Assembly: GCA_021300475.1 (NCBI GenBank)
Contig: JAJTDO010000011.1
Location: forward strand, 1-58,601
DNA length: 58,601 bases
Direction: 5' to 3'
Source of the DNA: Burkholderiales bacterium
Lineage (GTDB): Bacteria; Pseudomonadota; Gammaproteobacteria; Burkholderiales; Burkholderiaceae_B
In this document: positions 9,757 through 43,786 of the stretch, one piece after another
How positions within the stretch are numbered: position 1 is the first letter of the stretch
How the letters are laid out: every line of letters begins with the position of its first letter
The notes under the pieces: model-generated
The model's database searches: none
Told to the model about the DNA's origin: nothing
What the model saw: only the letters and a program-made list of their open reading frames with translations
Translations under genes and position numbers: made by a program

Positions 9757-9766
9757 GTTGCCTGGG

Positions 9767-9866
9767 TTGAGGAGCGTTGCGACAACATTTGTTTGCCAGG
9801 CTTAACCCGGTCTCTAAGATTCATCCGTCCGGATGCGTTTCAGGACTGCTTCAACGGCGCTCACGT
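9767..9866 (+). ncRNA. SAH riboswitch
   Basis: The leader matches the S-adenosylhomocysteine riboswitch of beta- and gammaproteobacteria. GAGGAGCGTTGCGACAA opens the aptamer at 9769, GCCAGGCTT is at 9795-9803, and CAACGGCGCTCACG closes it at 9852-9865. The P1 stem pairs GAGC (9772-9775) with GCTC (9859-9862), and CGTTG with CAACG. This class activates expression when SAH accumulates, which fits control of SAH hydrolase. A variable stem-loop (TCCGTCCGGA) lies inside. The ahcY ribosome-binding site follows about 25 nt later. Confidence 0.93.
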
Positions 9867-9901
9867 CTCTTTTTTATTCATTTTGAAGAAAGGAGGGCGT
9901 G

Positions 9902-41902: not shown

Positions 41903-42127
41903 GCTCGGCTTTCACTGGTGTTGGCTGGGTTTGTGCAAACACGCCCTAGAACCCTCACCCTTGAGAACCACACCGAACTTTGCAATTGAAAAAATGCTCA
42001 GGCGAAGCGATTGCGGCGCGGGTTGCGTTATTAAACGGTGCACACTGCAAGCGTGTCATTGTACACAAGGGCATGCTTACTCTAAACTGGTTGCTCAATG
42101 GTTCATCTGATTCAGGCCACTTTTGCC

Positions 42128-42820
42128 ATGCCAAATTCCCCGTTTTCATTTTTGCGCTCTGCGCTGCAACTGGTCACCGACCCAAGCGCACAAGACAACG
42201 CTTTCAAACAAATGGATCAAGCCCTGAAATTCATCAGCACCGAGGTGCAGGCCAACCGACCCAACCCCTCCGACAACTTGCCCACAGCCGTAAAAAGCGG
42301 ATTGCTGAGCAGCGAAGAAAAGACACTGGTTGCCGGATTGATGCGGGTGAACCACGTGGGGGAAGTGTGTGCCCAAGCCCTCTATCAGGCGCAGGCGCAA
42401 GCAACAAACAACCCAGCCTTGAAAGAAGTTTTTATTGAGGCGGCAAAAGACGAGGCAGATCATCTGGCCTGGACGGGCCAACGACTTAGCGAACTCGGCG
42501 CCCAGCCAAGCGTGCTGAACCCTGTTTGGTATGCAGGCGCCTATGGGTTGGGCTGGGTTGCAGGCAAGATGGGGGATGCGACCAGCCTTGGTTTTCTGGC
42601 AGAAACGGAAAAGCAGGTGGAGGCACACCTAACCACGCACCTTAAAAAACTGCCGGCGCAAGACCACGCTTCACGCGCCATTGTTGAACAGATGCGCCTT
42701 GAGGAAGCAGGCCATGGACACCATGCGGCGCAATTGGGTGGCACCCCACCTGCGCTGCCTGTCCGTCTGGCCATGCGGTTCATGTCAAAAATAATGACCA
42801 CCGTTGCGCAGCGCATTTAA
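42128..42820 (+). CDS. coq7: 2-polyprenyl-3-methyl-6-methoxy-1,4-benzoquinol hydroxylase
   Basis: A di-iron monooxygenase that performs the last hydroxylation of ubiquinone synthesis. The ATG at 42128 gives 230 aa; one at 42098 adds ten non-conserved residues. Iron ligands are visible in MRVNHVGEVCAQALY, AAKDEADHL and the C-terminal RLEEAGHGHHA (the second EXXH). It is a member of the Coq7 family typical of betaproteobacteria, replacing UbiF. Confidence 0.93.
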   Translation: MPNSPFSFLRSALQLVTDPSAQDNAFKQMDQALKFISTEVQANRPNPSDNLPTAVKSGLLSSEEKTLVAGLMRVNHVGEVCAQALYQAQAQATNNPALKEVFIEAAKDEADHLAWTGQRLSELGAQPSVLNPVWYAGAYGLGWVAGKMGDATSLGFLAETEKQVEAHLTTHLKKLPAQDHASRAIVEQMRLEEAGHGHHAAQLGGTPPALPVRLAMRFMSKIMTTVAQRI

Positions 42821-42853: not shown

Positions 42854-43285
42854 TCAGTCAGCCAGATCGTCAATCAAATCAAGGCTGAATGTAATTTCTG
42901 CGGTGGACGCCAGCATTTTTGTAGCGGAGCAGTATTTATCATGCGACAGTTTGATGGCCCGCTCAACAAGATTTCGGGACAGAGACCTACCGCGAATCTT
43001 GAAATGCAAATTGATTTTAGTGAACACCTTGGGATCGGTTTCAGCGCGCTCCGCCGTCACTTCAACATCACACCCGCGAATGTCTTGGTTGCTTTTGCGC
43101 AAAATAAGCACGACGTCATAGGCCGTACAACCGCCAGTGCCCAGCAAAACCATTTCCATGGGGCGTGGCGCCAGATTCCGACCGCCACCTTCCGGCGCAC
43201 CATCCATATTCACCAAATGCCCGCTGCCAGTCTCGGCAACAAAGCTCATGCCCGGCGAACCATTCCATTTAACAACGCATTCCAT
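42854..43285 (-). CDS. OsmC-family protein
   Basis: A 143-aa member of the OsmC/Ohr superfamily (YhfA-like). Two cysteines in the expected positions (GTGGCTAYDV and SHDKYCSATKM) make it a possible thiol-dependent peroxidase, though the YhfA branch has no settled substrate. It is convergent with coq7; its promoter lies in the large upstream interval. Confidence 0.88.
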   Translation of the reverse strand: MECVVKWNGSPGMSFVAETGSGHLVNMDGAPEGGGRNLAPRPMEMVLLGTGGCTAYDVVLILRKSNQDIRGCDVEVTAERAETDPKVFTKINLHFKIRGRSLSRNLVERAIKLSHDKYCSATKMLASTAEITFSLDLIDDLAD

Positions 43286-43460
43286 CGAAGCTCCTATTGC
43301 TGCATCGCAACAAAAATAATATTTTCATAAAAAAAGACCGAGCATTTACTCTATAAATGAGAGTTACTGACTTATCAGTCACCAAAAAAACAATGCAACC
43401 TATTGATTCAAAAATTAAAAACAGAAAGCCTTAAAAAACAACAATGAAACCCCCACTTTC
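43286..43460. other. AT-rich non-coding stretch upstream of osmC
   Basis: This is the first part of the 680-bp interval between osmC and rplM. It is rich in A and T, with no reading frame of note. A TGACT-TATC-AGTCA inverted repeat lies near 43367-43381 and could be an operator for the minus-strand osmC gene. I see no clear promoter for osmC. Confidence 0.35.
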
Positions 43461-43489
43461 TTGCATTGCAGCAGCGATTTCAGTATATT
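43461..43489 (+). promoter_or_regulatory. promoter of candidate sRNA
   Basis: TTGCAT at 43461-43466, a 17-bp spacer and TATATT at 43484-43489 form a sigma-70-like promoter. Transcription would begin near 43496 and run to the terminator at 43743. Confidence 0.6.
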
Positions 43490-43495
43490 CAATCT

Positions 43496-43743
43496 ATCGA
43501 CAAGCGAGCAGTATAAAAGAGTTTAAAAAAGTACCGCGGCCTTTACGTAAGGCGGTACAACCGCCAACGTAAAAAGTTTTATAGTGAAAGCCCTAATGGT
43601 GCATTCAGATTACAAGCATTAACGTAGGTCATCAGTTACATGAAATTTCAAGGGTAGAGAGTCAGACTCTCCTCTTACAGTTGTCTCCTCCACCGTCCTC
43701 CTTTGGTGGATTAAACCCAAGCCTCACGGCTTGGGTTTTTTTT
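43496..43743 (+). ncRNA. candidate ~250-nt small RNA with anti-Shine-Dalgarno motifs
   Basis: The unit is bounded by a promoter and a strong terminator and has no credible reading frame (longest about 8 codons). Near the 5' end GTACCG (43531) and CGGTAC (43553) can pair, or GGCGGT can pair with ACCGCC just downstream; the two are exclusive. Hairpin 43657-43671 follows (GAGAG/CTCTC). Then come three CUCC-type motifs, one in the loop of a 6-bp hairpin (43689-43694 with 43705-43710; loop GTCCTCCTTT). That loop equals the 3' end anti-SD core of 16S rRNA. It recalls cuckoo/CcsR-type sRNAs that bind ribosome-binding sites, but homology is not shown. Confidence 0.55.
43714..43743 (+). terminator. 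intrinsic terminator of candidate sRNA
   Basis: AACCCAAGCC at 43714-43723 pairs with GGCTTGGGTT at 43728-43737 around TCAC, followed by eight T. It is a near-perfect terminator in front of the rplM promoter. Confidence 0.93.
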
Positions 43744-43758
43744 GCCTGAAAATAAGGC

Positions 43759-43786
43759 TTGATAGCCACCTTCATTTTGCTATACT
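43759..43786 (+). promoter_or_regulatory. rplM promoter
   Basis: TTGATA at 43759-43764, a 16-bp spacer and TATACT at 43781-43786, with an extended TGC before the -10, make a strong sigma-70 promoter. The start near 43793 gives a leader of about 173 nt for rplM-rpsI. Confidence 0.85.

Follow-up and report, generated by a model that had tools for sequence, protein, structure and literature searches.

An RF02278-family small RNA gene with a candidate PhaR-type operator over its promoter in a Burkholderiales bacterium

Organization of the locus

The window analysed here, a stretch of 58,601 nucleotides from a Burkholderiales bacterium (GCA_021300475.1, contig JAJTDO010000011.1), contains a small RNA gene between a gene for an OsmC-like protein and rplM. 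The OsmC-like gene (42854–43285, − strand; Pfam PF02566, E 9.1e-18) is divergent from the sRNA, with coq7 of the COQ7 family (42098–42820, + strand; PF03232, E 3.4e-41) as the next upstream neighbour, and rplM, which encodes ribosomal protein L13 (43966–44394, + strand; PF00572, E 8.1e-46), lies downstream. A promoter-like site, TTGATA-16-TATACT (43759–43786, + strand), recognized by consensus match alone, is located between the sRNA terminator and rplM. Elsewhere in the window there is an SAH riboswitch (RF01057) at 9763–9869 on the + strand, with a score of 44.3 bits.

The sRNA promoter consists of TTGCAT (43461–43466) and TATATT (43484–43489) on the + strand, separated by 17 nt, just as an earlier sequence-only reading of this DNA had described it, and similar promoters are present in relatives. 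It is absent from a generic consensus scan because its −35 has three of the six consensus bases, and its support comes from conservation in relatives and from its resemblance to the mapped promoter of the S17 RNA of Bordetella pertussis. Transcription from a predicted start at the A at 43496 would yield an RNA of ∼248 nt. At its 3′ end is a strong Rho-independent terminator (43713–43743, + strand) with an 11-bp stem at 43713–43738 and a U-tract, which the earlier reading had also called.

Two sequences with anti-Shine-Dalgarno character precede the terminator. Site 1, the seed UUGUCUCC (43681–43688, + strand), is unpaired in the predicted fold, and its complementarity continues into the adjacent stem. 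Site 2 is the loop UCCUCCUU (43696–43703) of hairpin 1 (43689–43710, + strand), which has a 7-bp stem in the fold and displays the CCTCCTT motif in the way that had been proposed. The gene is thus self-contained as claimed, with promoter, terminator and single-stranded anti-Shine-Dalgarno display all in place. The last 63 nt (43681–43743, + strand), which correspond to a mature S17S-like double-hairpin sRNA, fold into the two hairpins and the unpaired UUGUCUCC end at −28.7 kcal/mol (z −6.14; none of 200 shuffles was as good), and the fold of 43495–43744 as a whole is likewise beyond chance (z −4.8).

Membership of the RF02278 family

Comparison with the Rfam covariance models places RF02278 (Betaproteobacteria toxic sRNA) at 43682–43744. 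The match spans the whole model (positions 1–64 of 64) and scores 72.1 bits, relative to a gathering cut-off of 50 bits, and the sRNA is clearly a member of this known family. The match includes one non-standard pair, in hairpin 1, and has the family layout of an unpaired CU-rich 5′ end, hairpin 1, and a terminator hairpin with U-tract. This result speaks against the earlier suggestion of a CcsR/cuckoo-type RNA, which we now consider extremely unlikely. The exposed CUCC motifs fit that type, but RF02278 explains the whole 3′ part, and no such model is found among the 12 Rfam matches up to E 5 (from a library that may hold none). RNAs of the CcsR/cuckoo family neighbour a small DUF1127-type gene, whereas the flanking genes here encode the OsmC-like protein and L13.

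Matches to RF02278 at E ≤ 0.001 are present in 47 of 61 genomes (the window's own and its relatives), 40 of them above the cut-off. In a phylum sample of 249 genomes there are 20 with a match; the 12 that exceed the cut-off all belong to the window's order, its own genome among them. When 43461–43744 was used as a DNA query with blastn, 251 of 268 family genomes had matches; the only other member of the window's genus, a 66% complete genome, gave none. Among the matches listed, the window itself apart, all start at query position 201 (43661) or later, and the aligned part is the 3′ end alone, up to 84 nt; short conserved segments, the promoter for example, would escape a search of this kind.

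A second and more diverged RF02278 copy is present in the window's genome (L002; G000:C32:41680–41746, − strand; 51.7 bits), with its hairpin stem rebuilt as UCUGCC/GGCAGA. Site 1 reads UGUCUCC or CGUCUCC in 23 correctly placed homologue rows, the row of L041 being left out. In the stem of hairpin 1, compared across 23 variants with the L002 sequence counted twice, pair 5 occurs as C-G, U-A or A-U and is the best-supported pair; the changes at pairs 3 and 4 rest solely on L002 and the weak match L290. Positions 2–28 of S17S, a 27-nt block, are reported to be 100% conserved (PMC11722255), but the window departs from this block in having ACCGTCC where relatives, including Bordetella, have ACCCTCC. 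The ACCGTCC form has no exact match among the genome contigs searched, from which the window's own genome was possibly left out.

Genomic neighbourhoods of the family

The genes next to the sRNA were compared at 151 distinct loci, counting the first copy per locus, leaving out the window, and taking loci with at least 260 nt of upstream DNA. The osmC gene is directly upstream in 73 and rplM directly downstream in 58, with both present in 55, and a further group of 67 loci has the end of coq7 no more than 450 nt upstream of the sRNA; eight loci have none of these neighbours. Cupriavidus, Ralstonia, Pandoraea, Burkholderia, Paraburkholderia and Limnobacter are among the rplM-type loci, and Bordetella, Achromobacter and Alcaligenes are among the coq7-type. 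The window unites the coq7-type and osmC-rplM-type neighbourhoods in one stretch. The osmC-rplM interval is therefore one of the usual homes of the RF02278 family and the location is not new, contrary to the earlier statement that no family member was known there.

The position of the sRNA, just upstream of rplM and on the same strand, raises the question of whether it regulates rplM-rpsI in cis, as a leader or attenuator, and is not a trans-acting RNA. We rejected this as extremely unlikely, since the strong terminator is followed by a separate promoter-like site before rplM, and many homologous loci lack rplM, including most of the 67 coq7-type loci, where it was not seen near the sRNA. Homologues are also reported to act in trans (PMC11722255, PMC5688073).

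Relationship to S17 and the double-hairpin RNAs

By its sequence and neighbours, the window sRNA looks like an orthologue of Bordetella S17, within the double-hairpin RNA family of Burkholderia. In B. pertussis, S17 adjoins coq7 and is a 190-nt RNA, transcribed from the promoter TTGCAT-17-TACTAT, that RNase E shortens to 67 nt and that Hfq binds (PMC11722255). The two share the RF02278 core, the terminator, the coq7/osmC neighbourhood and a TTGCAT-17-TANNNT promoter in front of a long precursor. They differ in precursor length, 190 nt as opposed to ∼248 nt, and in that the window has osmC between coq7 and the sRNA, and rplM downstream. The earlier reading had anticipated an RNA of about 250 nt, and while a primary transcript of ∼248 nt is indeed predicted, analogy with S17 makes it more likely that the abundant RNA is the processed 3′ end of ∼63 nt.

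In an E. coli reporter, S17S uses Site 1 pairing to repress a sigma-54 activator. Of the 91 genes whose expression rises in an S17 deletion, 70 carry complementarity to the RNA at or close to the ribosome-binding site (PMC11722255). The S17 promoter is active in vitro without BvgA, and a repressor has been postulated but not named (PMC11722255). Neither PhaR nor phasin occurs in the main text of that preprint.

The homologues in B. cenocepacia are double-hairpin RNAs with CU-rich stretches that are predicted to cover ribosome-binding sites (PMC5688073). Like the window sRNA, ncS03, ncS05, ncS27 and ncS62 belong to RF02278 and have two hairpins, CU-rich unpaired stretches and predicted targets at ribosome-binding sites, and ncS27 is processed; unlike it, ncS03, ncS05 and ncS62 are RNAs of 57–67 nt without a long leader (PMC5688073, PMC4603805). 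Levels of ncS03, ncS05 and ncS27 rise 8.0-, 6.9- and 4.3-fold in glucose medium, 2.9-, 3.5- and 9.7-fold in biofilm, and 2.6-, 3.9- and 3.9-fold on starvation, and the authors describe the cause of accumulation as 'yet unknown' (PMC5688073). The glucose induction is not specific, given that biofilm and starvation raise these RNAs 2.6- to 9.7-fold. Overexpression of NcS27 weakens growth on several substrates, and this RNA has been proposed to balance metabolic shutdown under nutrient deprivation (reviewed in PMC10987360). The NmsR RNAs of Neisseria are similar in having two unpaired CU-rich segments with complementarity to ribosome-binding sites (PMC5688073); the NmsRb model scores 30.4 bits on the window sRNA, under its cut-off of 52.

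RF02278 takes its name from an ability to inhibit the growth of E. coli (PMC5688073), which suggests a toxic RNA in the toxin-antitoxin sense. We consider this very unlikely for the window sRNA. Overexpression of S17S left exponential growth of E. coli BL21 unimpaired, with a modest effect on entry into stationary phase (PMC11722255), and the presence of a match in 251 of the 268 genomes fits a regulator.

The 5′ part of the precursor (43496–43680, + strand) would presumably be removed by RNase E-type cleavage, as in S17, and is probably specific to the window's lineage, because the family matches listed begin at 43661 or later. Two strong and mutually exclusive stems can be drawn in it, 43531–43558 (−10.7 kcal/mol) and 43542–43573 (−15.2 kcal/mol), so the exclusive hairpins of the sequence-only reading do exist on paper. 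Their conservation finds no support, as the listed family matches do not cover them, and 43496–43640 folds weakly better than chance (z −2.36, with 5 of 200 shuffles as good). Conceivably, the 250-nt precursor is itself functional, with these hairpins as a switch or through a small ORF. In the full-length fold GACAA at the 5′ end pairs with the UUGUC of Site 1, so that the long form may be less active, and S17L is reported to be about 2-fold weaker as a repressor than S17S (PMC11722255). The mechanical ORF list has ORFs of 33–42 aa that overlap the sRNA region; the frame of an S17L-type ORF is, by reading, not open in the window, with a stop shortly upstream of the core. Given the modest z score, and since 43474–43660 is reached by none of the family matches listed, we regard a separate function of the precursor as improbable.

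A putative PhaR-type operator over the sRNA promoter

PhbF (PhaR) of Herbaspirillum seropedicae has been footprinted on a region with the sequence TG[N]TGC[N]3GCAA (PMC3206438). The window has an exact match, TGCTGCAATGCAA (43461–43473, − strand), that covers the −35 of the sRNA promoter and that we regard as a putative PhaR/PhbF-type operator. It resembles the H. seropedicae regulon in the operator sequence and its placement near a promoter, and it differs in that the targets reported for that regulon are PHB metabolism genes, with no sRNA named among them (PMC3206438). The sRNA upstreams of relatives share a conserved dyad, TTGC-N3-GCA, starting at the −35.

For each of 159 distinct sRNA copies, the window's own included, we looked for the 13-mer in the preceding 254 nt. 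The best match is exact in 62 and differs at one position in 81, a total of 143 of 159, compared to 0.6% and 9.3%, respectively, in dinucleotide shuffles; in some of the 143 the best match is away from the −35, with five on the other strand and several more than 180 nt upstream. When promoters were chosen by −35/−10 likeness alone, TGC and GCA occupied the expected positions in 97 of 159, and the triplet between them took 14 different forms. At 45 loci where the upstreams of three genes could be compared, a 13-mer within one mismatch is present upstream of the sRNA in 34, of osmC in 18 and of rplM in none, and the corresponding numbers for the bare core TGC-N3-GCA are 33, 24 and 4. The sRNA boxes often have GCACAA where the consensus is GCANCA, and phasin promoters have half-sites of both kinds.

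The operator pattern is loose, being short and degenerate, and TGNTGCNNNGCAA has 112 exact matches in the window's genome. The pattern read backwards has 19, a ratio that was not used because the reversed pattern differs in CpG make-up. In the stretches inspected (19 sites picked by middle triplet from 100 listed places), 16 of 22 matches fall inside mechanically predicted ORFs.

L002, the second sRNA copy in the window's genome, is preceded by a PhaR-type box, TGTTGCGGTGCGACA, whose core has one mismatch. Tandem sRNA copies 376–535 nt apart were observed at L041, L045, L053, L055, L056, L057, L061, L125 and L141, the last two being Pigmentiphaga, and at the seven tandem loci checked every copy has its own box 117–118 nt before the core.

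Phasin and PHB genes

The genome of the window encodes PhaR (PF07879, at G000:C106) together with PHB genes: PhaC_N twice, a phasin, and the PHB depolymerase phaZ. Upstream of phaZ (L233, G000:C43, ∼1519–1535) is the palindrome TTGTTGCGATGCAACA. We examined best-hit phasin loci from Pandoraea, Burkholderia, Cupriavidus, Ralstonia, Limnobacter, Bordetella, the window's genome and five other genomes, and the core TGC-N3-GCA is present in 11 of these 12, with an exact 13-mer in eight. The window genome's own phasin promoter has the core alone and not the exact 13-mer. The one locus without the core belongs to G205, a genome in which PhaR was not found. Six further, lower-scoring phasin-like loci of Cupriavidus and Ralstonia have the core in three cases.

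An RF02278-like sequence lies ∼400 nt downstream of a phasin gene in Cupriavidus sp. amp6 (region of L249; G538:C23:41983–42057, + strand). It scores 36.5 bits, below the cut-off, and has TGTCTCCTC and a terminator-like end.

Retention of the operator in genomes with and without PhaR

The PhaR domain PF07879 is present in 245 of the 268 family genomes. Comparison by hand shows that 242 genomes have both sRNA and PhaR, nine the sRNA alone, three PhaR alone, and 14 neither; three of the PhaR-negative genomes (G271, G283 and G284) were identified by elimination. Eight of the 14 double-negatives come from a genus with genomes of 0.7–0.8 Mb, so part of this class can be put down to reduced genomes and incomplete assembly.

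Among the nine genomes with the sRNA alone, the promoter is readable in eight, as G218 is cut at a contig edge. The dyad is lost in three of these eight, G205, G214 and G248, which represent three genera. G205 and G248 are both rated 100% complete, in nine contigs and one contig, and are the least fragmented. G248 has kept the sRNA and the TTGC of the −35 but not the GCA half, and the dyad is intact in its congeners G246, G249 and G250. In G205 the phasin promoter is also without boxes. The dyad is kept in the other five (G093, G124, G212, G271 and G284), which are 57–97% complete in 210–590 contigs, and the absence of PhaR is therefore less secure in these genomes. A PHB synthase match was found in the PhaR-negative genomes G093, G212 and G271, and in G205 also.

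A dyad with a −10 at promoter distance is present in 59 of 59 PhaR-positive genomes, as opposed to five of eight PhaR-negative genomes (Fisher p 0.0012, which is not a clean probability since the test ignores relatedness of the genomes). Two additional PhaR-positive genomes, G129 and G034, keep the dyad, giving 61 of 61 read, these being loci returned by the searches and not a random draw from the 242.

sRNA copies without the operator

The operator core is missing in 18 of the 159 sRNA upstreams: those of G205, G248, Oligella (one core mismatch), Aquabacterium, Cupriavidus (10), Ralstonia (1) and Burkholderia (3). The genomes of Oligella and Aquabacterium encode PhaR, as do all 12 tested of the 14 core-less Cupriavidus, Ralstonia and Burkholderia (L109 and L161 left out). 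Overall, PhaR was found in 49 of 50 genomes checked for it; the metagenome-assembled genome behind L105 has a box and no PhaR match. At L091, L094, L114 and L164 (three Ralstonia and one relative) there is a match near the core alone and not at the −35. Paralogues have an exact core near the −35 in seven of 21 read, from Burkholderia, Paraburkholderia (2), Ralstonia, Cupriavidus, Pandoraea and G026. In B. singularis the rplM-linked copy is without the dyad, and one of the two other copies read has it. In three Cupriavidus loci (L118, L127 and L148) a second common dyad-like sequence, TTTCGCAGTGCAAA, is found upstream of the sRNA −35.

These copies bear on a possible but rather unlikely alternative, that the RNA is an ordinary member of the RF02278/S17 type and that some regulator other than PhaR recognizes its −35 dyad. 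The shortness and degeneracy of the dyad, with its 112 matches in the genome, would allow this, as would the 14 Cupriavidus, Ralstonia and Burkholderia orthologues that lack it, with PhaR present in all 12 tested, and the fragmented PhaR-negative assemblies that keep it. Several observations point instead to PhaR: the same dyad occurs at phasin promoters and phaZ, it was footprinted for PhbF (PMC3206438), and it is absent from the PhaR-less G205, G214 and G248, with the phasin promoter of G205 affected as well. S17 follows the Bvg phase in B. pertussis, a dependence that is not explained by PhaR alone.

A model for PhaR control of the RF02278 sRNA

We think it likely that the window encodes a PhaR-repressed RF02278 sRNA that blocks the ribosome-binding sites of uptake and catabolism genes upon PHB accumulation. 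PhaR (PhbF), bound to the TTGC-N3-GCA dyad over the −35, would keep the sRNA gene off. As PHB accumulates, PhaR would move to the granules, and the sigma-70 promoter would then produce the ∼248-nt precursor. An RNase E-type cleavage near 43681 would release a stable double-hairpin RNA of ∼63 nt; the short form, of ∼60–70 nt, would begin at TTGTCTCC. Assisted by Hfq, the single-stranded UUGUCUCC end and the CCUCCUU loop of this RNA would pair with the ribosome-binding sites of mRNAs from transporter, catabolic and regulator genes and lower their translation, and the presumed purpose would be to turn down uptake and catabolism when carbon stores are full. Of this model, the present analysis provides the family membership, the synteny and the operator match, and shows that the operator is enriched upstream of the sRNA, recurs at phasin promoters and has been lost from some PhaR-less genomes; processing, Hfq, the targeting of ribosome-binding sites and the PhaR granule switch are taken from other species. 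A crude search of the window's genome for extended Site 1 targets with the pattern GGAGGAGACN{1,10}ATG gives no support for such targets, with one match, which opens a frame of two codons, versus two for a reversed-pattern control.

With slightly less assurance, we favour the broader proposal that the RF02278 sRNAs of Burkholderiales form the RNA arm of the PhaR regulon, being derepressed with the phasins and acting as a brake on carbon and amino-acid uptake and catabolism, and that PhaR is the missing repressor of the S17 promoter. Such wiring of PhaR to an sRNA is plausible because AniA (PhaR) negatively controls the sRNA MmgR in Sinorhizobium meliloti; MmgR, unlike the window sRNA, is alphaproteobacterial and lowers phasins (reviewed in PMC8401924). 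No model named MmgR is among the 12 Rfam matches of the window sRNA up to E 5.

The sRNA family and its location were already known, and the PhaR-like operator over the −35 is the new observation. We found no link of RF02278, S17 or NcS27 with PhaR or phasins in our searches of a collection of open-access papers, the 2012 toxic-RNA and 2019 NcS27 papers apart. The operator offers a named and testable candidate for what turns the RF02278 family on. If the proposal is true, carbon storage would be coupled to broad post-transcriptional regulation across a large group of bacteria from soil, water, plants and hosts. It would also bear on bioplastic producers such as Cupriavidus necator, of which a 2021 review says that the part played by riboregulation in making PHB 'remains undeciphered' (PMC8401924).

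The OsmC-like gene may share the regulon, as there is a second PhaR/PhbF-type box on the osmC side of the interval, TGCTGCATCGCAA (43298–43310, + strand), that is an exact match to TGNTGCNNNGCAA.
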